From IMG/VR virus record IMGVR_UViG_3300030104_000577, positions 1 to 59,441 of that record: DNA of 59,441 nt. One strand, given 5' to 3'. This DNA is from a virus. The position numbers and the translations under genes are program-made. Below the pieces are notes generated by a model. The model was given only the letters and a program-made list of their open reading frames with translations, was not told where the DNA came from and did not search any database. Below, piece after piece: positions 17,465 through 56,745 of this stretch (positions are counted from its first letter, which is position 1; the number at the start of each line of letters is the position of its first letter).

Positions 17465-17775
17465 GTAGTGATCCCATATGTAAAAAATTTTTGCAAAATA
17501 TTTTTTATAACTAGACTTCTGACCATTAGTGTATTACACTATTGTCGAAAAGTAAAATTTTATTGGGATGTATCTCGAAAACCGACACACCACGCTTCGC
17601 GTAGTATGGTGTCTCAAAAGGGGGGTGGGGGGGTGGACCAGCAACCGTAGGCAGGAGGACCGAATTACTGAGCTACAGTTACAGCTGGCGCCAACCCCTG
17701 ATCTCACCACCACCAGCCAACAGCCAGCCAACAGCGAGCCTGAGCGACCACCCAGCCAGCCCGAGCCACCAGCGA

Positions 17776-17827
17776 GCCACAGCCAGCCACCACCGAGCAC
17801 TGCCCAGCCAGCCACAGCCAGCCACCA
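17776..17827 (+). repeat. 17-bp direct repeat in the GC-rich island
   Basis: GCCACAGCCAGCCACCA occurs at 17776-17792 and again at 17811-17827. Shorter CAGCCA words fill the space around both copies. This is consistent with slippage-driven expansion of a GC-rich simple sequence. Confidence 0.8.
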
Positions 17828-17862
17828 GTGACCCCGACCCACCAGCCAGTGGTCTCGAGCAT

Positions 17863-17966
17863 GAGCACCAGTTCGACTACGAGCACCAGCCCGAGCACCA
17901 GTCCGAGCACCAGTTCGACTACGAGCACCAGTCCGACTACGAGCACCAGCACCAGCCCGAGCACCA
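17863..17966 (+). repeat. Tandem 12/18-bp repeats (GAGCACCAG units)
   Basis: Six consecutive units of 18 or 12 bases plus a partial seventh, all starting GAGCACCAG: 17863, 17881, 17893, 17905, 17923, 17941 and 17959. The 18-base form is GAGCACCAGTTCGACTAC or a near variant; the 12-base form lacks the last six bases. All lengths are multiples of three, which would keep a reading frame open (Ser-Thr-Ser-Pro type on plus, Leu-Val type on minus). No start signal supports translation. Confidence 0.85.
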
Positions 17967-18003
17967 TAAAAAAAGATTAAAAAAAGTCAAATAAATACTT
18001 TAC

Positions 18004-18018
18004 TTTTATATACTTTTA
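18004..18018 (+). promoter_or_regulatory. Phage-type promoter element upstream of the 18098 gene
   Basis: TTTTATATACTTTTA lies 80 bases before the start codon. A longer shared block, CTTTACTTTTATATAC and on, occurs in the inverted copy upstream of the paralogous gene at 18559-18789, and the core TATATACTT recurs before several early genes. It is likely a promoter or regulator site. The leader between it and the gene also matches that of the paralogue (CCCTAAATAAAGG before both starts). Confidence 0.5.
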
Positions 18019-18097
18019 TTATAGACTATAAGGGTATTAATTAATAGGGTAATTAATACTAACTACTAAATAGTAACCCTAAATAAAGGAAAACAAA

Positions 18098-18334
18098 ATG
18101 TCAAAAACTACTAAAAAAGCTAAAGTCGCTGTAAAAGTTAACTTAGGCGGTTTACCAGAAAACGCGGTTTATACTAAAACTGGTAAAATAGCTAGGGCGG
18201 TTCATAACGCTGAGCGTCACGAGTTATATAACGGTAAAACGGTCAAGGAAATATTAAGTATCAAACCTACCGTTATGACCCCAGCGGATATTAAGTATGA
18301 TGTAAAAGTAGGGTTCATCACCTTAGAAAGTTAA
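18098..18334 (+). CDS. NAERH-family small protein, copy 1 (unnamed family)
   Basis: This 78-residue basic protein is one of only two convincing genes on the plus strand. It shares with the product of 18559-18789 the blocks TGKIARA.HNAERHE, NGKT.KEIL and ADIKYDVK.GFIT, and the same core is the C-terminal domain of the 23768-24253 product. The Lys-rich N-terminus (MSKTTKKAKVAVK) may bind nucleic acid. AAAGGA precedes the ATG. A strong terminator follows 14 bases after the stop, so it is a monocistronic unit. Function unknown. Confidence 0.75.
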   Translation: MSKTTKKAKVAVKVNLGGLPENAVYTKTGKIARAVHNAERHELYNGKTVKEILSIKPTVMTPADIKYDVKVGFITLES

Positions 18335-18348
18335 GGTAACTCCCCTCA

Positions 18349-18376
18349 GGGCTACGGTAAAACGTAGCCCTTTTTT
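18349..18376 (+). terminator. Intrinsic terminator after the 18098-18334 gene
   Basis: A perfect 8-bp stem GGGCTACG (18349-18356) with CGTAGCCC (18363-18370) and loop GTAAAA is followed by six T residues at 18371-18376. It lies 14 bases after the plus-strand stop codon. Confidence 0.92.
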
Positions 18377-18526
18377 ACGCACAGAAAACAGTTCAGATCA
18401 GATTATGAACTACTTTATATATAGAACTAGACTTAGTATATAGGTCTGTTCTGATCTGAAAAAGCAGATATGGTTTACAGAGCAATATGGTTTACAGAGA
18501 ATCGTTCAGATCTGAATATTAGGGGT

Positions 18527-18551
18527 AAAGGAAAAGGGGACCGAAGTCCCC
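18527..18551 (-). terminator. Intrinsic terminator after the 18559-18789 gene
   Basis: On the minus strand GGGGAC (18551-18546), loop UUCG and GTCCCC (18541-18536) are followed by a T-rich tail TTTTCCTTT. It lies 8 bases past the stop codon. Confidence 0.8.
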
Positions 18552-18558
18552 CTAACTA

Positions 18559-18789
18559 TTATTCAATAGTTATAAACCCCGTTTTTACATCATACTTGAT
18601 ATCTGCGAGGGTCATCCTAGTAGGTTTAAGCGATAAGATCTCTTTTATAGTTTTACCGTTAAACTCTTCGTGACGTTCCGCGTTATGAGTAGCGCGGGCT
18701 ATTTTCCCAGTAGCGGTATAAATACCAGCGGGAGCGAACGGTCCACAGTTCACTTTTACTTCTTGAGGTTTAGTAGCTTTTTTAGCCAT
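18559..18789 (-). CDS. NAERH-family small protein, copy 2 (unnamed family)
   Basis: This 76-residue protein uses the ATG at 18789 with AAGGTG 8 bases upstream. It is a close paralogue of the product of 18098-18334, sharing TATGKIARATHNAERHEEF-like and GKTIKEILSLKPT-like segments and ending in DIKYDVKTGFITIE. The two genes converge with their terminators 150 bases apart, so gene, leader and promoter were duplicated in inverted orientation. Function is unknown. The basic N-terminus (MAKKATKPQEVKV) is variable between copies. Confidence 0.75.
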   Translation of the reverse strand: MAKKATKPQEVKVNCGPFAPAGIYTATGKIARATHNAERHEEFNGKTIKEILSLKPTRMTLADIKYDVKTGFITIE

Positions 18790-18875
18790 TATAATCACCT
18801 TTATTTAGGGTTATTTAGTAGTAGATTTATTAGTATAATCACCCTATTAATTAAACTAATGACTATATCATATTA

Positions 18876-18912
18876 TAAAAGTATATAAAAGTAAAGGGAT
18901 GATCACTAATTA
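18876..18912 (-). promoter_or_regulatory. Phage-type promoter region of the 18559 gene
   Basis: Minus-strand TTTTATATACTTTTA (18890-18876) is the inverted match of the element at 18004-18018. Immediately upstream on the same strand is ATTAGTGATC (18910-18901), a word also present upstream of the 20498-20815 gene. The distance to the start codon is about 90 bases. Confidence 0.5.
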
Positions 18913-19479
18913 ATTTTATCCCCTGTTCAGATCGCAATGTGATCCGAATGTAATCTCAATCACATCAGAACCAGACAATATAACATGGTCAATGGTCCAT
19001 TGTTCAGATCAGAAAAAGCTCGGATGGTTTACAGACGTTCAGATCCTATTGGCTATTGGCTGAAAGTCCAGATTTCGTGGTCCATGGTCCATTCCTGTAG
19101 GATTTTTGTCCGTGAACGTGATCATGATGCAACCTAGTTTCTATATACAACGGTCCAGAGTCCACAGACCACTGTCTAAAGATCTTTCACATGCTTTATC
19201 ACACCTTCACCATTATTACCATCAAGTTACCATCGACCACAGTCCATGGTCATATTACCTGTTCCAAGGCAATAGGTCGCCAATACGATAGCCAATAGCC
19301 CTCACACAAGGACTAACTGCGAGGGTTATAAAGATTATGCTATTGGCTTATTGGCTAAACGCGAATATTTGTGTAAAATTATTAAGTAAAATTCGTGAGA
19401 GCTAATATAGAAAGTGGTGCGTCTCGTCGGACAAGTGCACCAAGCTTGCTAAATAGGGTATATTGGAGGAACCCCCCGA

Positions 19480-19869
19480 CTAACTACTACTATTATTATT
19501 ATTATAGAAAGAATTTTTTCCCCAGTAAACCCATTCACCATTCTCCCACACATATTCAGGGTGGCGAATATTAACGGAGACTGCCACAGGTTTATACACT
19601 TCCATAGAGTATATAGGTATATCATCACCCACCCATGGAAAGTAAAAGTTTTCGTCCTCGGCTAATATACCGTCTAGATCATTTTTCCACTCTTCGTACT
19701 GGTTCTCTATGTCTCGTGCTATTTCGGCACCTTCTTTGAGAGTTTTGTTGTCCGCTACGGTGTAGTGGTCTTTTAGGTTAAAGTCAACCTTTTTCATAAT
19801 ATCACGACGTCGGTCGCCTCTAAACTGAGCTGGTACAAGCTGCAGATTTATCATATATTTGCTTTTCAA
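19480..19869 (-). CDS. Early protein of unknown function
   Basis: The start is a TTG at 19869, preferred because AAGGAG lies 6 bases upstream; the first ATG is five codons later without such a site. The 129-residue product includes VDFNLKDHYTVADN and GAEIARDIENQYEEW, and ends in a run of Asn and Ser encoded by an ATT microsatellite at the gene's 3' end. Its GAEIARDIENQYEEW region resembles GIAIIKDMEKQFGEW in the product of 20136-20501, so the two may be distant paralogues. Confidence 0.5.
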   Translation of the reverse strand: MKSKYMINLQLVPAQFRGDRRRDIMKKVDFNLKDHYTVADNKTLKEGAEIARDIENQYEEWKNDLDGILAEDENFYFPWVGDDIPIYSMEVYKPVAVSVNIRHPEYVWENGEWVYWGKNSFYNNNNSSS

Positions 19870-19895
19870 GTTGTTCTCCTTATTTAATTTATTAC

Positions 19896-19946
19896 TATAT
19901 AATTATATAAACGAAAACGGCGATCACCTAGCACAAATCACTAATC
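19896..19946 (-). promoter_or_regulatory. Recurring upstream element before the 19480 gene
   Basis: On the minus strand TGCTAGGTGAT (19933-19923), preceded by GTGATTAGTGATT, lies about 25 bases upstream of an AT-rich TATATAATTATATA segment and about 55 bases from the start codon. The same TGCTAGGTGAT word is found before the genes at 21211 and 22576. Confidence 0.45.
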
Positions 19947-20151
19947 ACTTACCTTTTTCGTGTCGAATGTTTTTTTCGTAATTTAGGTTCACGACGTTAT
20001 CTATTTCTTCTGCTTCTATATCTTTTTCGTCAGCTACAAATTTCCATTTTTGTGCTTTAAGATATCCTTTTTCTTCAGCTTCTTCCCTGTCCGTAGCCAT
20101 CACGAAACACTCTTCTACTGTGTAAGTTGTTCTGGTTAACTTATATTCCAT
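19945..20151 (-). CDS. Small early protein of unknown function
   Basis: The 68-residue protein (MEYKLTRTTYTVEECFVMAT) has a short N-terminal beta segment followed by a charged region DREEAEEKGYLKAQKWKF. Small proteins of this YxVxExxxVxAxxxEEA type are common in phage early regions, function unknown. Its start overlaps the upstream stop by 16 bases. Confidence 0.45.
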   Translation of the reverse strand: MEYKLTRTTYTVEECFVMATDREEAEEKGYLKAQKWKFVADEKDIEAEEIDNVVNLNYEKNIRHEKGK

Positions 20152-20501
20152 AAGTGCTCCTCACAGCTGTAGTAATACTCTTCGAGACTGGGCGCGTCAC
20201 ATTCAAAGCCATCGGTGATGTGTTGTTTCCAGTACTTACCGAATGGACCACCGCTCGCGCACAGGTCACAACCTTCCCACAGCCATATAGGTGTGGCATC
20301 ACTAGGTATGCGGAGTTTAAACATCACTTTCATCACATTCCCTGACATATCTTGATTATCACACCACTCACCGAACTGCTTCTCCATATCTTTTATTATA
20401 GCTATGCCATCATTCAAAGTGCCTGCTCCTATACGATAGAAGCGAGGCGACTTTGGATCATAACCGCTAGGATGTAGGGTAAACTCATATATTTTATTCA
20501 T
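20136..20501 (-). CDS. Early protein of unknown function
   Basis: The 121-residue protein has GIAIIKDMEKQFGEWCDNQD near residue 33 and IPSDATPIWLWEGCDLCASGG further on. Cysteines in CDLC and near the C-terminus (CDAPSLEEYYYSCEE) might bind metal. It overlaps the next gene by 4 bases. Similarity of the helical segment to the 19480-19869 product suggests ancient duplication. Confidence 0.45.
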   Translation of the reverse strand: MNKIYEFTLHPSGYDPKSPRFYRIGAGTLNDGIAIIKDMEKQFGEWCDNQDMSGNVMKVMFKLRIPSDATPIWLWEGCDLCASGGPFGKYWKQHITDGFECDAPSLEEYYYSCEEHLWNIS

Positions 20502-20815
20502 GGAGTTACCCTAAACACCTTACTCTCGATGCCGTTATCAAACTTATAATAAAGCATCCCGATATTTCCTATACCTTCTACATGCTCATCGCGTATAGCT
20601 TCATATACCGCTTTAGCTTCTTTAGTATATTCTAGCCATAACTCATCAACTGGCGGTAGGTACTTCCTAAACTCATTTTTCGCTGTTGACTTAGTTAGTT
20701 TTTTCCAAGGCACGTCCTTAAACTCAATAGCTTGAGATGGACCAACGTAAACATGAATATCACCGCCTTCACCGACTAAATATTCATAATCTTCCATAGT
20801 ATATTTTACTGCCAT
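20498..20815 (-). CDS. Early protein of unknown function
   Basis: The 105-residue acidic protein (MAVKYTMEDYEYLVGEGGD) starts 5 bases after the ribosome site AGGAGGA. It has a helical middle (LWLEYTKEAKAVYEAIRDE) and a beta C-terminus. It is the first gene of the small operon 19945-20815, headed by a promoter region at about 20843-20895. No family recognised. Confidence 0.45.
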   Translation of the reverse strand: MAVKYTMEDYEYLVGEGGDIHVYVGPSQAIEFKDVPWKKLTKSTAKNEFRKYLPPVDELWLEYTKEAKAVYEAIRDEHVEGIGNIGMLYYKFDNGIESKVFRVTP

Positions 20816-20842
20816 AAGTTATTCCTCCTGTTTTTATTTAAC

Positions 20843-20895
20843 TTATAAGTATATAATAACTAAGAACTTATTCGCTAACTAGGACGATCACTAAT
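20843..20895 (-). promoter_or_regulatory. Promoter-like region of the 20815-to-19945 operon
   Basis: Minus-strand TTATATACTTATAA (20856-20843) resembles the TATATACTTTTA element before the NAERH genes. ATTAGTGATC (20895-20886) lies about 30 bases further upstream, followed by GTCCTAG. The rest of the gene-free stretch up to 21031 holds no convincing gene. Confidence 0.45.
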
Positions 20896-21031
20896 CGCAT
20901 ATACCCTTATATATAGGCGGTTTTACTAGGGTTGAGCGCGGTGGATCGGCTTTTATTTACGCTCCAGTAATTCATCTTTATAAGGTAATACTAGGGTTAG
21001 GGGTAGTAGAAAAACGCTCGATTAGCTTGAT

Positions 21032-21214
21032 TCACCTGCCAATGTCTTTTATACTATTGAGACCAATGACTTGGTACGCTCCCTTGTTATAAGCAGGTGC
21101 CACGGTGAATACACCTCTAGCACTACCACACTGGACGCAAGTGGCATAACCTAAAGCAGCACGTCTTTCTTGTATTCGTCTACGACAAATTTTACAGGAA
21201 ACTTTTACAGTCAT
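21032..21214 (-). CDS. Small zinc-ribbon protein
   Basis: The 60-residue protein has two CxxC pairs, CKIC at residues 7-10 and CVQCG at about 26-30, with the intervening segment RRRIQERRAALGYAT. This spacing resembles DksA/TraR-type or Zn-ribbon phage proteins. It overlaps the next gene by 4 bases. It may bind nucleic acid or RNA polymerase, but it lacks the coiled-coil part of DksA. Confidence 0.55.
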   Translation of the reverse strand: MTVKVSCKICRRRIQERRAALGYATCVQCGSARGVFTVAPAYNKGAYQVIGLNSIKDIGR

Positions 21215-21648
21215 TTAGCTATCCTCACATACTCAGTAAGAGCAGACTGAAAGCTAGAGCCGTGTACACTAATGGCATAGTAAACATAATCTACAATTTT
21301 ATCTGTAGAGGACACGTCAATAGTATTATATTCACCAGACTTGTAATAGTAGGGAGCAGGAGTGTGGTACACCTCTCTCCAATCTTCATACTCAGTAGGC
21401 ACATCTCTTGGTCTATCACCTCCGTGAACCTCACTGAAATAATAGCCATACTCTACACCTTCAGGGATAAATATTTTAAGCATATCGCGAATAATCATTT
21501 GTTCTTTATATACTAACGGACAATCCTCGGCAAACTGTTCTTTGAAATATGATTCTGGTTGCGATGAGTAATAGCCTGTAGAGCTGTATGCTGTATTTTT
21601 ATAATCGGCAGGTATTATTTGCCAACCATCTTTTATTACTTCTTCCAT
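21211..21648 (-). CDS. Early protein of unknown function
   Basis: The 145-residue, Tyr-rich and acidic protein has the start segment MEEVIKDGWQIIPADYKNTAY and a Gly/Asp/Arg motif VHGGDRPRDVPTEYEDW. No domain recognised. A promoter-like region with the exact 15-mer shared with the 22576 gene lies about 50 bases upstream. Confidence 0.4.
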   Translation of the reverse strand: MEEVIKDGWQIIPADYKNTAYSSTGYYSSQPESYFKEQFAEDCPLVYKEQMIIRDMLKIFIPEGVEYGYYFSEVHGGDRPRDVPTEYEDWREVYHTPAPYYYKSGEYNTIDVSSTDKIVDYVYYAISVHGSSFQSALTEYVRIAK

Positions 21649-21676
21649 AGTCTTGTACCTTTATTTATTAATAGTA

Positions 21677-21714
21677 AATATATAATAAAATACATTAACT
21701 ACATCACCTAGCAT
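21677..21714 (-). promoter_or_regulatory. Recurring upstream element before the 21211 gene
   Basis: Minus-strand ATGCTAGGTGATGTA (21714-21700) is followed about 20 bases later by TATTATATATTTA. The identical 15-mer occurs at 22847-22833 in the same relation to another start codon, which argues for a conserved regulator or promoter site. Confidence 0.5.
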
Positions 21715-21718
21715 ACTG

Positions 21719-22009
21719 TTATATCTCGTAATATTCTGCTGCTCGTTTTAGGTTTTCTAAAGAGACTTGCATCAATGCGTCCTCTGGACTTTCCTTAATC
21801 CAGTAATAACCAAACTCTGACACATCGTCGTTGTTTTTAGGTTTTAGAACAAAATAACCTAAATCACGCACATATATGATCGAGGTGTTGCCAGCTTCAA
21901 ACTTTTCCCCTTCGTCTAGTTCAGTCAGGTGGTGTTCTAATTCATCACGCAGTAGTTTATGCTCTTCCTTCCGTGAATGTAGTGGGTGACGATATATACC
22001 TTTACCCAT
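21719..22009 (-). CDS. Small early protein of unknown function
   Basis: This 96-residue protein opens with a basic helical segment (RHPLHSRKEEHKLLRDELEHHL), and a short beta domain follows (NTSIIYVRDLGYFVLKPK). It overlaps the upstream gene by 8 bases and is co-translated with it. No motif of known function. Confidence 0.4.
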   Translation of the reverse strand: MGKGIYRHPLHSRKEEHKLLRDELEHHLTELDEGEKFEAGNTSIIYVRDLGYFVLKPKNNDDVSEFGYYWIKESPEDALMQVSLENLKRAAEYYEI

Positions 22010-22574
22010 GTTTCACCTCCTTTGGGATATCCCACATAGTCTGCGAAGTGAGTACACTATACTCACCGTTCGCTTTCATAGGTAAAACTTCTTTACTGTC
22101 TTTGACCCAGTTTTCAGGTAGTCGCCAGCTGTCATACCATGGAGGCAGTTCGATATTCTTTAGTGCCTGACCTAAAGGTGTGAAACAGGTATGAAAGTAA
22201 GCCTCCTGATCATACCTAAAAAAGCCATTATTCTGCTGGTCACTAAGAGACACGAACCAACCTTTAGCATCTATCTGCGGTTTATCAATAAACAAGTAAA
22301 CATACTCGATGTGCAGAGGGTCGAGAGCATTCATAAACTCGTTCAAGTTTTCGTACTTCTCTGGTTCTTGTTTTCTAGTGTCTGACTCTGCTGTTGTAAG
22401 TTTTAAACTAGATATGTATCCTGTGTTCACGAGTCTTCTAACTTTTATTATATCAGCATAATAACCGTACAACATAAAACCATTGTGCTGTAAGTAGCCA
22501 TCATAATGACAATAAGATGCGGTAATACCGTCCTCGTCCCATGAGCTGTATCCTATGTAACTACGAGTTCCCAT
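22002..22574 (-). CDS. Conserved phage protein (MGTRS..DG family), unknown function
   Basis: The 190-residue product starts MGTRSYIGYSSWDEDGITA and continues YCHYDGYLQHNGFMLYGYY. This opening, with CH.DGYl..nG, is a well-spread phage early protein family without assigned activity. The rest (KGWFVSLSDQQNNGFFRY) resembles a small alpha/beta fold. It lies 1 base upstream of its neighbour's start, in an operon headed at 22779. Confidence 0.5.
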   Translation of the reverse strand: MGTRSYIGYSSWDEDGITASYCHYDGYLQHNGFMLYGYYADIIKVRRLVNTGYISSLKLTTAESDTRKQEPEKYENLNEFMNALDPLHIEYVYLFIDKPQIDAKGWFVSLSDQQNNGFFRYDQEAYFHTCFTPLGQALKNIELPPWYDSWRLPENWVKDSKEVLPMKANGEYSVLTSQTMWDIPKEVKHG

Positions 22575-22575
22575 A

Positions 22576-22779
22576 TTACGCCACCTTGACGATTATATCG
22601 TCTTTCATAGTAACTTTAGCAAACCACTCGCGACCACCTTGTAAGTGTGGACGATGGGCACCGATAAAACTGCCTGTAGATTTGTACTCATCACCAAAGA
22701 AAGATGTCTCTGTGTAGTTGAGTCGTTGACCTACTGCTTCTTTAAGTTTTTTCTTGCTTGTATAGTTTAATAACATCAT
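22576..22779 (-). CDS. Small conserved phage protein (YTSKKKLKE family)
   Basis: This 67-residue protein contains LNYTSKKKLKEAVGQ.L.Y.ETS-type sequence, FFGDEYKSTGSF and WFAKVTMKDDIIVKV. I recognise the pattern from other marine phage early regions, where it is hypothetical. A beta-rich fold is likely. Its ribosome site AAGGAG is 9 bases before the first ATG. The 15-mer element at 22833-22847 lies upstream. Confidence 0.5.
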   Translation of the reverse strand: MMLLNYTSKKKLKEAVGQRLNYTETSFFGDEYKSTGSFIGAHRPHLQGGREWFAKVTMKDDIIVKVA

Positions 22780-22832
22780 ACGCTGGTTCTCCTTATATTT
22801 ATTTAGCGTATATTAATAATACTAATGATTAT

Positions 22833-22847
22833 TACATCACCTAGCAT
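22833..22847 (-). promoter_or_regulatory. Recurring upstream element before the 22576 gene
   Basis: Minus-strand ATGCTAGGTGATGTA is identical to the copy at 21700-21714. It is followed by TATTATTAATATA about 20 bases downstream and the start codon about 55 bases downstream. Confidence 0.5.
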
Positions 22848-22856
22848 GATGCGTAA

Positions 22857-22997
22857 TCAATTATCGTCATGTGTTCCGTAGAAATATATTCCTAAAACAA
22901 CGGACATGGCGAGAGCTAACAGTAAAGAATCGTTCAAGCTTGCTTGTATAGCCAGTTCGATCAAGTATTGTTCCTCTTCGTGTATATAATTACTCAC
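22857..22997 (-). CDS. Small single-span membrane protein
   Basis: A GTG at 22997, overlapping the stop of the zinc-ribbon gene, gives a 46-residue product with an acidic N-terminus (IHEEEQYLIELAIQAS) and one membrane span (LLLALAMSVVLGIYFYG). An upstream in-frame ATG at 23039 would overlap the neighbouring gene by 50 bases and is less likely. Small membrane proteins in early phage regions can affect the host envelope; nothing specific can be said. Confidence 0.4.
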   Translation of the reverse strand: MSNYIHEEEQYLIELAIQASLNDSLLLALAMSVVLGIYFYGTHDDN

Positions 22998-23166
22998 CGT
23001 TCTTTGCCATAGTGTATAGTCTAGCAGGTATAACCACATTTACATTACAGTCACTACAGCACCTACCGTTTTTCACTGGTCGTGCATTATGACCTTGATC
23101 CCAGATAATTTCACCACCATCTGTTTTTTGTTCCTCTATATCGTTCTTACATATACTACATTTCAT
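22990..23166 (-). CDS. Small zinc-ribbon protein
   Basis: This 58-residue protein starts MKCSICKNDIEEQ and ends with a second cysteine cluster CCSDCNVNVVIPARL. CxxC plus CCxxCN with the middle motif GHNARPVKNGR is a compact zinc-binding family found in many phages, function unknown. The ATG at 23166 lies inside the end of the preceding gene (11-base overlap). Confidence 0.6.
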   Translation of the reverse strand: MKCSICKNDIEEQKTDGGEIIWDQGHNARPVKNGRCCSDCNVNVVIPARLYTMAKNGE

Positions 23167-23380
23167 TTGCTTTACCTCTCTTAGTTTTTTCTAGAAATAC
23201 TTTTTGACTACTGATTCTTCTAGGGTTGTATAAAATGTGTTCTGGTATGTCTTGAACTATTTTGAAAACTTTCTTTAACTGTTTAAACTGTGCATCTTTT
23301 CTCTCACCAGCTATCAAGTATACATAACGATCGAGCTCTCTACAAAGTGCTTGCTTCAAACTAACTGGTTGCTTCATCAT
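23156..23380 (-). CDS. Small basic early protein
   Basis: This 74-residue helical, Lys/Arg-rich protein (KQALCRELDRYVYLIAGERKD, KKVFKIVQDIPEHILYNPRR) overlaps its upstream neighbour by 20 bases. No family recognised. Confidence 0.4.
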   Translation of the reverse strand: MMKQPVSLKQALCRELDRYVYLIAGERKDAQFKQLKKVFKIVQDIPEHILYNPRRISSQKVFLEKTKRGKANEM

Positions 23381-23546
23381 CTAACCTCTGTTCTGCGTCG
23401 TGGTATTGAAGCTGTAGTTCTTGCTGATTCAATGAGTTGATTTCTCGTCTTTGTTTAGCTTTTACCTCATCGAGTACTCTGTGCGCTGTAGCTACATTCT
23501 CGATAGCTCTATATAATTCTAAAGTTTGCTCTTTGGTAAGTGACAT
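23361..23546 (-). CDS. Small helical early protein
   Basis: This 61-residue protein is almost entirely a charged helix or coiled coil (MSLTKEQTLELYRAIENVA, LQLQYHDAEQRLDDEATS). AGGAGGC precedes the ATG by 4 bases. It heads the operon 23546-to-22857. No function can be assigned. Confidence 0.4.
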   Translation of the reverse strand: MSLTKEQTLELYRAIENVATAHRVLDEVKAKQRREINSLNQQELQLQYHDAEQRLDDEATS

Positions 23547-23625
23547 GATGCCTCCTAAGGTTTAGTTATTAATAAAGTATAAGTATATAACTAGAATAAT
23601 AGATCATTAAGGATAATGTTAAGAT

Positions 23626-23760
23626 AACCCTGACCACGCAAGGGAGGCTGCAGAATGATAGGACGTGATCAGGGTTAAAAGAAAAACCTGATGAGGGTAG
23701 GAGAATACTATCGTAAAGTCTTAAATCAATAACAATAGTCAAATGAACACCCCCATCAGG
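23626..23760. ncRNA. Tandem structured hairpins in a gene-free gap
   Basis: Two neighbouring inverted repeats fill the gap 23547-23767. The first pairs AACCCTGACCACG (23626-23638) with CGTGATCAGGGTT (23664-23676), 13 positions with one mismatch. The second pairs CCTGATGAGGG (23687-23697) with CCCCCATCAGG (23750-23760), one mismatch, with an inner ACTAT/ATAGT stem inside its loop. On the minus strand this follows the 23768-24253 gene. It could be a terminator pair, a small RNA or a protein-binding site; no T tract follows on the minus strand. Confidence 0.4.
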
Positions 23761-23767
23761 CAACCAA

Positions 23768-24253
23768 CTATTTATAGAGCATAAACTCCTTATCAAGATC
23801 GTACCTGATATCTTTAGCTTCTACTCTAAGAGTTGCTAGAGCTTCCCTTACTGTCATACCATCTAAGTCGCTATGACGCTCTGCGTTCTCTTTAGACCTA
23901 GCCATTTTTGCTGGGTTATTCACTATAACCCGATCCATGTCTAGACCTTTTACTGCTACTTTATCTTTCGATTTTTTTACAGCGGTTTTAAGGTTAGTCT
24001 TCGTTACTTTTAACTTCCCTATCTTAGCTGTATTTTTAAGTGCTGCTTGTTTCATTGCACCCATTTGCTTACCCTCCTCTGGCTCTCGCCAAGTTATATT
24101 ACGGTTGTTGTACATATGGAAGACTCGTTTAACCTCACCTTCCTCTTGATACTCAGCGGTAAATTGTACGGAGAGCAGAGATTTGACGGTAGCTTCATGC
24201 CATAAATCTTTGTGACATGTTACTAATACTTTATCTGTTCTCGGTGCTCTCAT
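23768..24253 (-). CDS. NAERH-family protein with N-terminal extension, copy 3
   Basis: This is a 161-residue basic protein. Residues about 108-161 repeat the core of the small proteins at 18098 and 18559: PAKMARSKENAERHSDL, DGMTVREAL and KDIRYDLDKEFM. The first 65 residues form a separate beta-rich domain (VLVTCHKDLWHEATVKSLL, VFHMYNNRNITWREPEE), joined by a Lys-rich linker. The fusion suggests the NAERH core is an independent module. Function unknown. It has its own upstream element at 24271-24312. Confidence 0.65.
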   Translation of the reverse strand: MRAPRTDKVLVTCHKDLWHEATVKSLLSVQFTAEYQEEGEVKRVFHMYNNRNITWREPEEGKQMGAMKQAALKNTAKIGKLKVTKTNLKTAVKKSKDKVAVKGLDMDRVIVNNPAKMARSKENAERHSDLDGMTVREALATLRVEAKDIRYDLDKEFMLYK

Positions 24254-24270: not shown

Positions 24271-24312
24271 TTAAAAGTATATAAACTAATATAACGAAAG
24301 TATAGGAAGATC
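24271..24312 (-). promoter_or_regulatory. Promoter-like region of the 23768 gene
   Basis: Minus strand: GATCTTCCTATACTTTC (24312-24296) then TTATATACTTTTAA (24284-24271), about 20 bases before the start codon. Both words recur: GATCCTATACTTTC before the 34653 gene and TATATACTTTTA before the other two NAERH genes. Confidence 0.5.
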
Positions 24313-26366: not shown

Positions 26367-26783
26367 TTAATTGAAGTCTTTTCGACTAATTCCTGGAAAA
26401 TGTTTTTCTAATTGTTTATCGTCACTTTTTACTTTTCTATATTTTTTAGGAAAATATACATTTAATTCATAAATAGCTTCATTTATATCCATCCAATCGT
26501 CCACAGGTTTATGTCCTAAGAAATGAGTGTAACCACCTGAGTAACTATCTGTATACACTTTTGCTTGTTCTAGTATCTCATAAGGAACATGTGCTGTTTC
26601 TACTGTGCCTATGTATTGTCTTTGTTCAGGAGAAACAGGGTCATTGTGTTTCTTCCCCTGTCCATAATCCATTTTATACTGCTCTCCTTGCCACGCACTA
26701 TTACACTTCCTACTACAAAATTTTCTCCTTTGACCATACAAGTCTTTACCGCAGTATTTACATTTGTAATAAGTTTTATCCAT
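26367..26783 (-). CDS. Zinc-finger early protein
   Basis: In this 138-residue protein the first 30 residues form a compact zinc ribbon, CKYCGKDLYGQRRKFCSRKC, the pattern CxxC..CxxxC of HNH- or FPG-type fingers. The remaining 100 residues (PYEILEQAKVYTDSYSGGYTH) show no HNH histidines, so endonuclease activity is not supported. GTATATAAAAGTATAA lies directly in front of the start, so its promoter is very close or lies further upstream. Confidence 0.5.
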   Translation of the reverse strand: MDKTYYKCKYCGKDLYGQRRKFCSRKCNSAWQGEQYKMDYGQGKKHNDPVSPEQRQYIGTVETAHVPYEILEQAKVYTDSYSGGYTHFLGHKPVDDWMDINEAIYELNVYFPKKYRKVKSDDKQLEKHFPGISRKDFN

Positions 26784-26895: not shown

Positions 26896-27924
26896 CTATG
26901 CTGCCTCAGCGTACTCTATGGCTTTATTCATAGCTTTCTGCTTTAGCGAAGCACGGTTCCCGAACCATGCGTTATGTAACGACGCATCTCTGTCGTGTCC
27001 CCACTTATGGTCAACTACGAAAGTTACAGCATTCATAGCTCCCCACCAAGTACCGTTAGACGACTTGAGTTTAGCTCCTGGCTGTTCATCAATAGCTTGA
27101 TGCACTAACGAGGGGATACGCTTGAAATCGTCAACCATTGACTGACGAGTAGCTATCGCTCTCACCTCAGTCATGTTTTCTATCTCCTCCTGCGCTTTCA
27201 ACAGCTCTGGTTGAAACACGTCGGCGATATAGGTAACGACCGTATCTTTGTTAAACTTCTTACGACTAAGAAACTCCGCACTCTCTTGAAACTCTTTCAT
27301 ACGGTTGCCAGCTAATCCTAATGCTTCTTCGGCAGCGACGAAAAGCTCAGAGTCTAGAGCCTTGACGTGAGGTACTCTAAACGAGTTCTGCCTATCACTA
27401 GACAGTGCCATAGTTAGAGTGTTGTTACAGACTACACGAATCGGTGTAAACTTAATCTCGTTAGACTTACCCCATTTATGAGATACGCTTACTAATAAAT
27501 AACCTAGCACACGGTCATCTCCTGGTAGTGTAAAGTCTTTACTGACATTAGCTAAACCCCAGACCTGTTCCCCACCTTTTAGCGAACCTGCAGTTTCCAT
27601 AGTCATATGCCCAGCATCTGTAAACTTTTTGAAAAACTCAAAAGCCTCAGCATTTTGCGTAGGAATAAACCGCTTACCACATGGTCCAAAGGTTTTATTA
27701 TCGCTATCACGAGTGATAACATAATAATCAGGGACAGCAATTACGTCGCTAGACGAATCAAGATCTGGCTGTTCGTGCGTAAATAGATGGCGTTTGCTAA
27801 CTGTCCAATCAAGTTCAGCAGCAACGAGCATCTCTTGCGGTGATAGGTTAGGATCAACCTGTACACCTAGACCGTGCCAAGGAACTTCCCCAGCGTAAGC
27901 CATTGTTTCTACTGCATGAGCCAT
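26896..27924 (-). CDS. DUF932 domain protein (phage/plasmid-like protein)
   Basis: The 342-residue protein starts MAHAVETMAYAGEVPWHGLG and contains FGPCGKRFIPTQNAEAFEFF, IRVVCNNTLTMAL and TWWGAMNAVTFVVDHKWG, the ordered motifs of DUF932 (TIGR03299). The family is widespread in phages and plasmids and lies near replication genes; its biochemical role is not settled. AAAGGAGAG precedes the ATG. The gene is separated from both neighbours by about 90-110 bases and may be its own transcript. Confidence 0.8.
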   Translation of the reverse strand: MAHAVETMAYAGEVPWHGLGVQVDPNLSPQEMLVAAELDWTVSKRHLFTHEQPDLDSSSDVIAVPDYYVITRDSDNKTFGPCGKRFIPTQNAEAFEFFKKFTDAGHMTMETAGSLKGGEQVWGLANVSKDFTLPGDDRVLGYLLVSVSHKWGKSNEIKFTPIRVVCNNTLTMALSSDRQNSFRVPHVKALDSELFVAAEEALGLAGNRMKEFQESAEFLSRKKFNKDTVVTYIADVFQPELLKAQEEIENMTEVRAIATRQSMVDDFKRIPSLVHQAIDEQPGAKLKSSNGTWWGAMNAVTFVVDHKWGHDRDASLHNAWFGNRASLKQKAMNKAIEYAEAA

Positions 27925-39627: not shown

Positions 39628-40028
39628 AATACATACCTCTTTATAATTAGTGGCGATGTGTCTTAGTCGAGTAGGGTATCTACGCACCTAAAGGTGAAGT
39701 GCTATGTAGTTATCTCGACCTGTTTTTATGGTAAGCAAAATAGTAAGACTTGAGGCAGCATCGCCGACTACCTGTCGCTACTACTAAATAGCCCTATTAG
39801 TATTATATAGAATTAAAATTAATAAAAGCACTTTAATAAAATATTTAAGATTTGCTAATAAGCTAATAATGTAAACTCTGAATCTCTCTGTATTTAAGCT
39901 ACTCAGATAGCTATTGACAAACCTATTAACCCCATATTACCTATATATAAGTAATACTAAAACATGATGCTAGTTATTTACTTAATATATACTTTATACT
40001 TTAAACTAACTTATATAAAGGAACTAAG
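39628..40028. promoter_or_regulatory. Divergent control region between replication operon and SNF2 helicase
   Basis: The 400 bases hold no gene. Leftward: TATAAT on the minus strand (39807-39802) with a poor -35, giving a leader of about 170 bases that contains CACCT/AGGTG (39685-39696) nested inside an outer TCGAG/CTCGA pair (about 39667-39716). Rightward: TTGACA (39914-39919), 15 bases, TATTAC (39935-39940), then a second phage-type element TTAATATATACTTTATA (39982-39998) and AAGGAA before the TTG start. The structured leader may be an operator or attenuator. Confidence 0.5.
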
Positions 40029-41471
40029 TTGGAACAATTTTATTTTAAAACTAAACCTTACGATCACCAACTAGACGCATTAAACATATCTTACGATAAA
40101 GAAAAGTTTGCGTTATTTATGGAGATGGGTTGTGGTAAATCAAAAGTCGTTATAGACAACTTTGTATATCTACACAAGCACAATAAAATAAATGGTGTTT
40201 TAATATTAGCTAATAAAGGTGTGTATGATACATGGTACAGTAAAGAAATACCAGCACACACACCAGATGATATAGAAATTACTTTAGTTAAGTGGTCAAA
40301 CTCAAACTCTCAGAAAAATAAAAAGTTGTTACAGTCTCTATATGAAGATCCTAATAAACTTAATATATTAGTTATGAACACTGAGGCATTGAGCACGAAG
40401 AAAGGTACACAGTTCGCTACTAATTTTCTATTTAAGTGTAAAACTATGTTTATTATAGACGAAAGTACAACGATTAAAAATCATAAAGCTAAGAGGACTG
40501 TGAACGCTGTACGCATAGGTAAGTACGCACATTATAAAAGAATATTAACAGGTAGTCCTGTAACTAAAAGTCCACTAGATTTATATAGTCAGTGTTACTT
40601 TTTAGACCCAGCATTACTAGGTTTCAATAGTTACTATGCATTTAGAACTAGGTATGCCAATCTAGTAGAGAGTTCTGCTGGCGGTAGAACTTTTAAGTTG
40701 GTTACAGGATATAAAAACTTAGAAGAACTAAACCAACTTATCGGTAAGTTTAGTTACAGAGTTCTTAAAAAAGATTGTTTAGATTTACCAGACAAAGTTT
40801 ATTTGAAACGTGTCATACAGATGACAGATGAACAGAAACGAGTCTATAAAGATTTACAAAAGAAAGCAGAGTCTTTATTAGCAGGCAGTAAAGTTACTAT
40901 AACACATTTGATTACTCAAGTTATAAGACTACATCAAATATCCTGTGGTTTTATAAAATTAGATAACGGTGCTCTCACAGAATTACCTTCATACAGGATG
41001 GCTGAACTATTAAGCGTATTAGAAGAAGCAGACGGTAAGGTAATTATCTGGGCGAACTACAGACACGACATACAAAAGATAGAGAAAGAACTTACAAAGC
41101 TCTACGGTGCAGAGTCCGTGGGCACTTATTATGGTGACGTTAGTCAAGAAGATAGAGAAGATGTTATTAATAATTTTCAAGATAAAGAACATCCTCTTAG
41201 GTTTTTTGTAGGTAATACACAAACAGGTGGCTACGGTATCACACTGACTGCTGCAAGTACAGTGGTATACTACTCTAATAATTATGACCTAGAAAAAAGG
41301 TTACAGTCAGAGGACAGAGCGCACCGTATAGGTCAAACGAATAAAGTTACTTATATAGATATAGTTTGTGAACGCACAGTAGATGAGAAGATAGTAAAAG
41401 CACTACGTCAAAAACAGAATATAGCGCAGACAGTACTGGGCGAAGAACAGTGGAAAGATTGGTTACTATAA
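40029..41471 (+). CDS. SNF2-type DNA helicase/translocase
   Basis: This 480-residue protein starts with TTG, 6 bases after AAGGAA. Motifs: a Q-like start (TKPYDHQLDAL), Walker A EMGCGKSK (32-39), DEST (144-147), LTGSPVTKSP, GGYGITLTAAS and the family VI box QSEDRAHRIGQ. The QxxxRxHRIGQ form is diagnostic of SNF2 enzymes. Phage members are thought to assist replication, recombination or removal of proteins from DNA. It is the only large plus-strand gene, and its end overlaps the opposing gene by 6 bases. Confidence 0.88.
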   Translation: MEQFYFKTKPYDHQLDALNISYDKEKFALFMEMGCGKSKVVIDNFVYLHKHNKINGVLILANKGVYDTWYSKEIPAHTPDDIEITLVKWSNSNSQKNKKLLQSLYEDPNKLNILVMNTEALSTKKGTQFATNFLFKCKTMFIIDESTTIKNHKAKRTVNAVRIGKYAHYKRILTGSPVTKSPLDLYSQCYFLDPALLGFNSYYAFRTRYANLVESSAGGRTFKLVTGYKNLEELNQLIGKFSYRVLKKDCLDLPDKVYLKRVIQMTDEQKRVYKDLQKKAESLLAGSKVTITHLITQVIRLHQISCGFIKLDNGALTELPSYRMAELLSVLEEADGKVIIWANYRHDIQKIEKELTKLYGAESVGTYYGDVSQEDREDVINNFQDKEHPLRFFVGNTQTGGYGITLTAASTVVYYSNNYDLEKRLQSEDRAHRIGQTNKVTYIDIVCERTVDEKIVKALRQKQNIAQTVLGEEQWKDWLL

Positions 41472-55955: not shown

Positions 55956-56745
55956 AATTCCAGTACCCCTTTTTTACACCTATTTTAATTATTTCTAACA
56001 CTCCTTCTTCTATCGCTTTTTGTAACGCTATTGATGTGCTTTCATTCGCTGACACACCCCCCTCTACCTCTATGAGTCTTGTCCCTTGATCTATAAATCG
56101 AAATAAATCTTGTGACAAACCTACAGATAAAACATTTTTAGAAGCTAGTGTTTCTATCAATACTTCACCTGTGGATACAGATACTAATCGTAAACTAATC
56201 GTTATCAGATCCTCTCTGTACTCTTTACTAGAGCCGATGCCGAGGTAACGAGCACCTAAACCACCACTCTTTATATTAGTATCATAACTCAAAACTCCTC
56301 CCTGTACTAAAAGTCCAGCAAAAAGTAATGGTTTTACATTACTGTCTTCTTCAAAACTTTCTCTAGTAGAGCGTATTATTTGTCTCTCTTTAGTTAAACT
56401 TTCTAACCCTACCCTTTCTACTACTTTAAAAAATTCGCCCTCTGCAGCGTGTTTTAAAGCTCTTATAAGATACGCTTCTGGAGCTTGTGTAATAGCTGTA
56501 CTAAACAAAGCAAACTCACTGTTGCTTTTCCTTTGACCTGTGTGATCTCTAAAACTGTTAGGATATATAGCTATCACTGGTTTTCTTTTAGAAGGTGGTG
56601 TATTTTTCAACTCTTCTGACTGTAAAGAAAGTATAGAAGAGCTCTGTATAACTACGTGTGGGAAACCACCACCCTCTAATAAATTTTTAGACGCGCAACT
56701 AGAAAGTAAAATCGCCAATAGGCACAGTAATAACTGTCGTCCCAC
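55945..56745 (-). CDS. csgG: CsgG, curli secretion channel lipoprotein
   Basis: A GTG at 56745 gives a compact lipoprotein signal (GRQLLLCLLAILLSSC) and 266 residues, near the 277 of E. coli CsgG; a longer ATG frame would overlap csgF by 101 bases. Family segments: AIYPNSFRDHTGQRK, AYLIRALKHA, ERVGLESLTKERQIIRSTRE, the signature IKSGGLGARYLGIGSS, ITISLRLVSVSTGEVL and FRFIDQGTRLIEVEGGVSANE. CsgG forms a nonameric outer-membrane pore. All expected regions are present, so a working channel is likely. Confidence 0.9.
   Translation of the reverse strand: MGRQLLLCLLAILLSSCASKNLLEGGGFPHVVIQSSSILSLQSEELKNTPPSKRKPVIAIYPNSFRDHTGQRKSNSEFALFSTAITQAPEAYLIRALKHAAEGEFFKVVERVGLESLTKERQIIRSTRESFEEDSNVKPLLFAGLLVQGGVLSYDTNIKSGGLGARYLGIGSSKEYREDLITISLRLVSVSTGEVLIETLASKNVLSVGLSQDLFRFIDQGTRLIEVEGGVSANESTSIALQKAIEEGVLEIIKIGVKKGYWNYDE

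Follow-up and report, generated by a model that had tools for sequence, protein, structure and literature searches.

A family of small basic proteins with three copies in a marine phage genome

The window analyzed here is a whole virus record of 59,441 nucleotides (IMG/VR record IMGVR_UViG_3300030104_000577), and its positions 18098 to 24253 encode three proteins, A, B and C, that share a core containing the motif NAERH. The genes and the DNA features around them are as follows, where I1 to I5 denote inverted repeats.

17998..18058, plus strand: upstream region of gene A, an inverted copy of the upstream region of gene B (I3, I4, I5)
18005..18018, plus strand: 14-mer TTTATATACTTTTA upstream of gene A
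18098..18334, plus strand: gene A, small copy, 78 aa, on the strand opposite to the late operon (ORF and alignment)
18348..18371, plus strand: intrinsic-terminator-like hairpin after gene A (fold z −2.70)
18391..19045, no strand: five exact GTTCAGATC repeats (18391, 18504, 18925, 19002, 19037), the core of the palindrome TTCAGATCTGAA
18534..18553, minus strand: intrinsic-terminator-like hairpin after gene B (whole-segment fold z only −0.82)
18559..18789, minus strand: gene B, small copy, 76 aa from ATG, convergent with gene A (ORF and alignment)
18790..19448, no strand: repeat-rich non-coding stretch upstream of gene B (659 bp), with TGGTCCATGG-type palindromes at 18986 and 19078
18836..18896, minus strand: upstream region of gene B, an inverted copy of the upstream region of gene A (I3, I4)
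18876..18889, minus strand: TTTATATACTTTTA upstream of gene B
23768..24253, minus strand: gene C, mid copy, 161 aa, with an N-terminal beta-rich domain, a Lys-rich linker and a C-terminal family core
23768..24064, minus strand: probable short product of gene C from an internal ATG (M64), 98 aa, with a Shine-Dalgarno-like GAGGAG just upstream
23771..23944, minus strand: NAERH core of gene C
24272..24285, minus strand: TTTATATACTTTTA upstream of gene C
26367..26783, minus strand: zinc-ribbon/HNH-like ORF in the slot where relatives carry a long copy of the family (HNH-like by PHROG, E 2e-5)

Three paralogues, one of them fused

The initial annotation had listed these three ORFs, one of them a fused member, and the ORF calls, an alignment of the cores and shuffled controls all agree with it, the start of B being either the ATG at 18789 or, in an alternative longer reading, a GTG at 18798. 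In an alignment of the three cores 21 columns are invariant, among them K-AR, NAERH, G-T--E-L and DI-YD, and each core contains the blocks K.AR...N..RH, G.TV..AL and DI(K/R)YD...GF in that order. Local alignment scores are 247 (A-B), 87 (A-C) and 88 (B-C), whereas the highest values from 300 shuffles per pair were 45, 45 and 42; together with homologues elsewhere, this rules out a chance resemblance. When B was used as the query against the 59.4 kb record, the only other members recovered were A, with E 2.4e-29, and C, with E 2.1e-7, and an iterated profile, which matches all three at E 4.3e-26 or better, found nothing further in the record below E 0.3. The ratio dN/dS (NG86) is 0.11–0.48 across 14 pairs of family members, with 0.14–0.24 for A and 0.11–0.32 for B, each against three orthologues, and 0.17 for the A-B pair, where dS is 1.66. 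The alignment scores, the record search and these substitution rates indicate that the genes are real, selected and not recent copies, and by these sequence measures A, B and C are true paralogues, each under purifying selection. A and B point towards each other as the two arms of an inverted duplication, which also takes in roughly 100 bp upstream of the genes (repeats I1–I4) and had gone unmentioned in the initial annotation.

Gene C is the mid copy, which other lineages encode as a separate protein of about 100–120 aa with a Lys-rich tail; in the window and the related genomes G001 and G004 it carries an in-frame fusion to a beta-rich N-terminal domain. The codons before the old start retain, in these same three genomes, the sequence GAGGAG followed 6 or 9 bases on by ATG. 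Across 56 minus-strand ORFs of the window there are 385 internal in-frame ATGs, and that of C is the only one with AGGAGG at −16 to −5. This conserved internal Shine-Dalgarno sequence and ATG make it probable, from sequence, that C gives two products, the full-length protein of 161 aa and a short one of 98 aa. The model of full-length C was of low confidence (pLDDT 49.6) and was left out of the fold search.

Distribution, genomic slots and descent

Profile scans of viral contigs gave 26 loci at first, the first-scan records matching in 26 of 26 by choice of records and several of them carrying three or four NAERH copies, and then 147 relatives, of which the 80 best were retained, at 79 loci. 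Members of the family occur widely among viral metagenome contigs. A search of 84,980 prokaryote genomes returned 31 pattern stretches, none confirmed as a relative, and tblastn with A and with a mid copy found no family member in 50,697 phage records; the N-terminal domain of C and one long copy, searched against phages in the same way, gave only matches of E at least 0.8. The initial annotation knew of no named family with this signature, and Pfam, PHROGs, NCBIfam and the sequences of the PDB indeed gave no significant match for A, B or C; viral contigs did contain homologues that have each of the three motif blocks, so neither a known family that explains the motif nor a failure to find relatives stands against that view. 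An RNA element as the explanation was set aside, an Rfam search over the whole window having found nothing. Nothing recognizable as the NAERH family appears in the available portions of the literature on pelagiphage regulators and paralogous small phage proteins, and the words "winged" and "helix-turn-helix" do not occur in the passages available from PMC9599517. As judged from sequence comparison, the NAERH family is a real, undescribed family of small basic proteins of a marine phage lineage, and many unnamed ORFs in viral contigs could be labelled as belonging to it.

Its members occupy three fixed slots, the long copy after DUF932, the mid copy (gene C) after the small terminase gene and the small copy (genes A and B) upstream of the large terminase gene (TerL), and in the window C lies in the TerS slot and A and B upstream of TerL. 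Landmarks were mapped in 83 loci, where repeat loci of one contig were mostly dropped by hand and near-identical contigs such as L070–L072 kept. All loci were fetched because they carry the domain, and the slot fractions are not frequencies in nature: among the 50 loci that extend far enough to show it, a long copy (about 180–216 aa, core C-terminal) comes after DUF932 in 48, the exceptions being L040 and L061, and a small copy lies at most 5.5 kb upstream of TerL in 26/26 loci with room, themselves chosen for the domain. Mid copies are flanked by the small terminase gene (Terminase_2) on one side and a block of unnamed ORFs on the other. Small copies share the strand of TerL in 26 cases and are opposite to it in 7. 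The N-terminal ~110 aa of long copies (L097:4185-4781 and others; GGS...W...LHTGK.K.F.....A...LW) are a second unnamed conserved phage domain, which has no Pfam or PHROG match. In addition, the DUF932 protein (26896-27924 in the window, E 1e-40) is conserved near the PolA gene in most relatives.

A tree of 96 rows, limited by few columns and with the class of some truncated ORFs assigned by hand, places the long copies in one clade (98), the A copies (6 rows, 86) and B copies (5 rows, 95) in sister clades (94), and C with its counterparts from G001, G004 and L042 (98). Small copies as one clade and mid copies as one clade were both rejected (AU p 0.006 and 0.026), so slot and descent do not coincide fully. 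In the clade of the window, the long copy is absent from G000, G001 and G004; the zinc-ribbon ORF that holds its slot in the window does so also in G004 and in G001 (60% identical in the latter). This clade also has the inverted A/B pair, present in G000, G001, G002, G004 and G005, and the partial G003 is consistent with it. With the long copy lost and A/B duplicated, the copy number is still three in the three records where all slots are visible. By this sequence evidence the multi-copy state is old and the copies have diverged. The three copies of the initial annotation are present but are not peculiar to this phage, since three or four per record are common in the lineage. The dosage-dependent role that it had proposed as one option is not supported: the copies are old, forming their own clades across genomes, and sit in distinct slots, each under purifying selection, which argues for different roles and against dosage. 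Dosage through recent copies in particular is ruled out by the A/B dS and the separate A and B clades.

Predicted core and surrounding DNA

The confident model of the core (75 aa, 25 sequences, mean pLDDT 85, pTM 0.68) runs strand 21–24, helix 32–41, helix 46–50, helix 59–68 and strand 71–74, which is the order of a winged helix in which, in our reading, the N-terminal strand replaces the usual third wing strand. The family domain of about 60 aa is accordingly predicted to resemble a winged helix, being small and basic and carrying a Lys-rich tail. Net charge is positive in the core of 89 of 92 distinct members and in the preceding 20 residues of 82 of them, and the predicted third helix has conserved acidic residues (DIKYD). 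Structural matches were weak; those with Z above 4 included GATOR1 chain C (Z 5.1) and a RiPP recognition element (Z 4.1, aligned over 58 of the 86 residues in its chain), where a Z of about 5, by the comparison tool's own caution, can reflect a common arrangement. We take both to be winged-helix-type domains, the RiPP recognition element presumably being a peptide-binding one. Foldseek gave no match for the core in the PDB at E ≤ 0.001, and no HTH or winged-helix profile passes its cut-off for A, B or C.

The 14-mer TTTATATACTTTTA has exactly three sites in the window, before A, B and C (0.15 expected, one mismatch allowed), and in L001 an exact match to its first 12 bases stands before B and before C. 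A 10-base core of the 14-mer is found without mismatch at five places, every one of them within 18.0–24.3 kb (0.68 expected): ahead of each of the three family genes and ahead of the ORFs that begin at 20815 and 23546. A variant of the core precedes 26783. A promoter exclusive to the family is weakened by these sites before other ORFs of the region, and from its placement the element looks like a regional promoter or operator that is not private to the family. Position and shared upstream elements suggest that the three genes belong to the middle region and the late boundary rather than being the early genes that the initial annotation had supposed.

A and B flank and adjoin repeat-rich non-coding DNA at the early/late boundary. 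All five exact copies of GTTCAGATC lie within 18391–19045, against 0.45 expected in the whole window. The repeat is similarly placed in L001, L002, L003, G004 and G005 and flanks the small copy of L041, shorter forms lie near the small copies of L035, L064 and L065, and it is missing near small copies in most other lineages. As a lineage-wide operator it is only partly upheld, having been seen in the clade of the window and L041, with shorter forms elsewhere. Across 33 loci (80.8 kb near small copies, 282.2 kb elsewhere), TTCAGATC/GATCTGAA has 34 sites at most 1.1 kb from small copies and 2 elsewhere, with corresponding counts of 37 and 15 for GTTTACAG, 60 and 19 for CCAATAG, 119 and 144 for GGTCCA and 79 and 75 for CCATGG, for motifs picked from the window, with the window counted and loci that share ancestry. 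GC-rich low-complexity tandem repeats (CCAGC-type and GAGCACCAG-type) with a G-run occupy 17600–17970, within the intergenic region from which gene A and the late operon diverge, and L002 likewise has GC-rich repeats at this place. In this otherwise minus-strand genome, 39628–41465 is a long stretch that has no minus-strand ORFs, an inverted GC skew and a plus-strand ORF of 480 aa (40029–41471).

Possible roles and comparison with known systems

The best reading is that A, B and C are small DNA-binding regulators of the middle/late switch, to which we assign a probability of roughly 0.4, based on position at the boundary of the TerL operon, the divergence of gene A and the repeat-rich DNA. From the predicted fold, the family proteins may bind DNA in a sequence-specific manner, and their targets or promoters may be the palindromes near A and B and the AT-rich elements upstream of these two genes. 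The small copies, located between the middle genes and the TerL/portal operon, would control their own expression as well as the passage from middle to late genes; gene A and the late operon are divergently transcribed from one intergenic region, as in repressor/operon switches. The N-terminal domain of C, which is probably made as full-length and short products, would add a second binding surface. Several observations count against regulation of the switch by DNA binding. The acidic DIKYD residues are unusual for a DNA-contacting third helix, neither the HTH and winged-helix profiles nor Foldseek gave a match at their thresholds, GTTCAGATC is missing in most other lineages, and TTTATATACTTTTA, with its core before 20815 and 23546 and a variant before 26783, is maybe only a regional promoter.

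The same repeats and palindromes, clustered in and around the 659 bp non-coding stretch, could instead mark an origin or a packaging-linked site, with the proteins being origin-binding or nucleoid-like. Such a role in replication or genome organization would fit the basic cores and tails, the proximity to TerL and TerS and the GC-rich tandem repeats at 17.7–17.97 kb, but we consider it unlikely, as there is no skew switch at the repeat-rich stretch, longer stretches free of minus-strand ORFs occur elsewhere (1391 bp at 39628 and 743 bp at 55956), and each paralogue sits at its own module boundary with promoter-like upstream DNA, a better fit for regulators. It is doubtful that the core binds a host protein such as RNA polymerase rather than DNA, with copies diverged for different targets in host takeover. 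Small basic genes with their own terminator-like hairpins, the conserved acidic positions in helix 3 and the presence of the RiPP recognition element, a peptide-binding winged helix, among the structural matches would suit this, whereas the fixed boundary slots and repeat clusters are not predicted by it. That these are ordinary lineage-specific duplicated genes with a non-regulatory function (e.g., linker, packaging or accessory), the repeats and promoters belonging to the region only, accords with the upstream element before unrelated neighbors and the dispensable long copy (absent in G000, G001 and G004), but is improbable given the purifying selection on A, B and C and the conserved slots.

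A broader and quite speculative extension is that one expanded family of miniature regulators runs the program of the whole lineage, one paralogue per module boundary (after replication, after TerS and before the late operon), cross-wired through the shared upstream elements and the palindrome island, and that loss of the first station was accompanied by duplication of the last into an inverted pair. To our knowledge, little is known about how such ocean phages time their genes. Related phages infect abundant ocean bacteria, and with one domain at three fixed boundaries and a likely target region beside the late operon, the problem can be narrowed to three small proteins and a single DNA region of 2 kb.

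Among known families, phrog_17516 (function unassigned, 81 aa) gives a co-linear, sub-threshold match to the core, at best E 0.029 in the library search, with three of nine members, and matches two of ten records, the window and G001. A single-family search gave E 0.002 to B and 0.005 to A, weak values that are not specific since such matches also occur in 4 of 14 control genomes. The best viral structural match is Gp18 of the Alphaproteobacteria phage PhiJL001 (Foldseek E 0.015, probability 0.99, 23% identity), which differs in its length of 151 aa and its poor superposition (rmsd 11.3) and was compared by structure alone. Winged-helix and HTH domains resemble the NAERH core in the predicted order of helices and strands and in basic charge, and differ from it in that the core has an N-terminal strand, no profile match and a best Z of only about 5. 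The phages with the most similar terminases (HTVC027P, HTVC023P, 023Pt_psg01, DSL-LC04 and MinM2) had no copy of the domain at the sensitivity used. Compared with the HTVC023P-type pelagiphages, the window has a TerL that is 60.5% identical to that of HTVC027P and 53.8% to that of HTVC023P over 99–100% of its length, and DNA_pol_A is also present in the window; the hosts of both phages are Pelagibacter.
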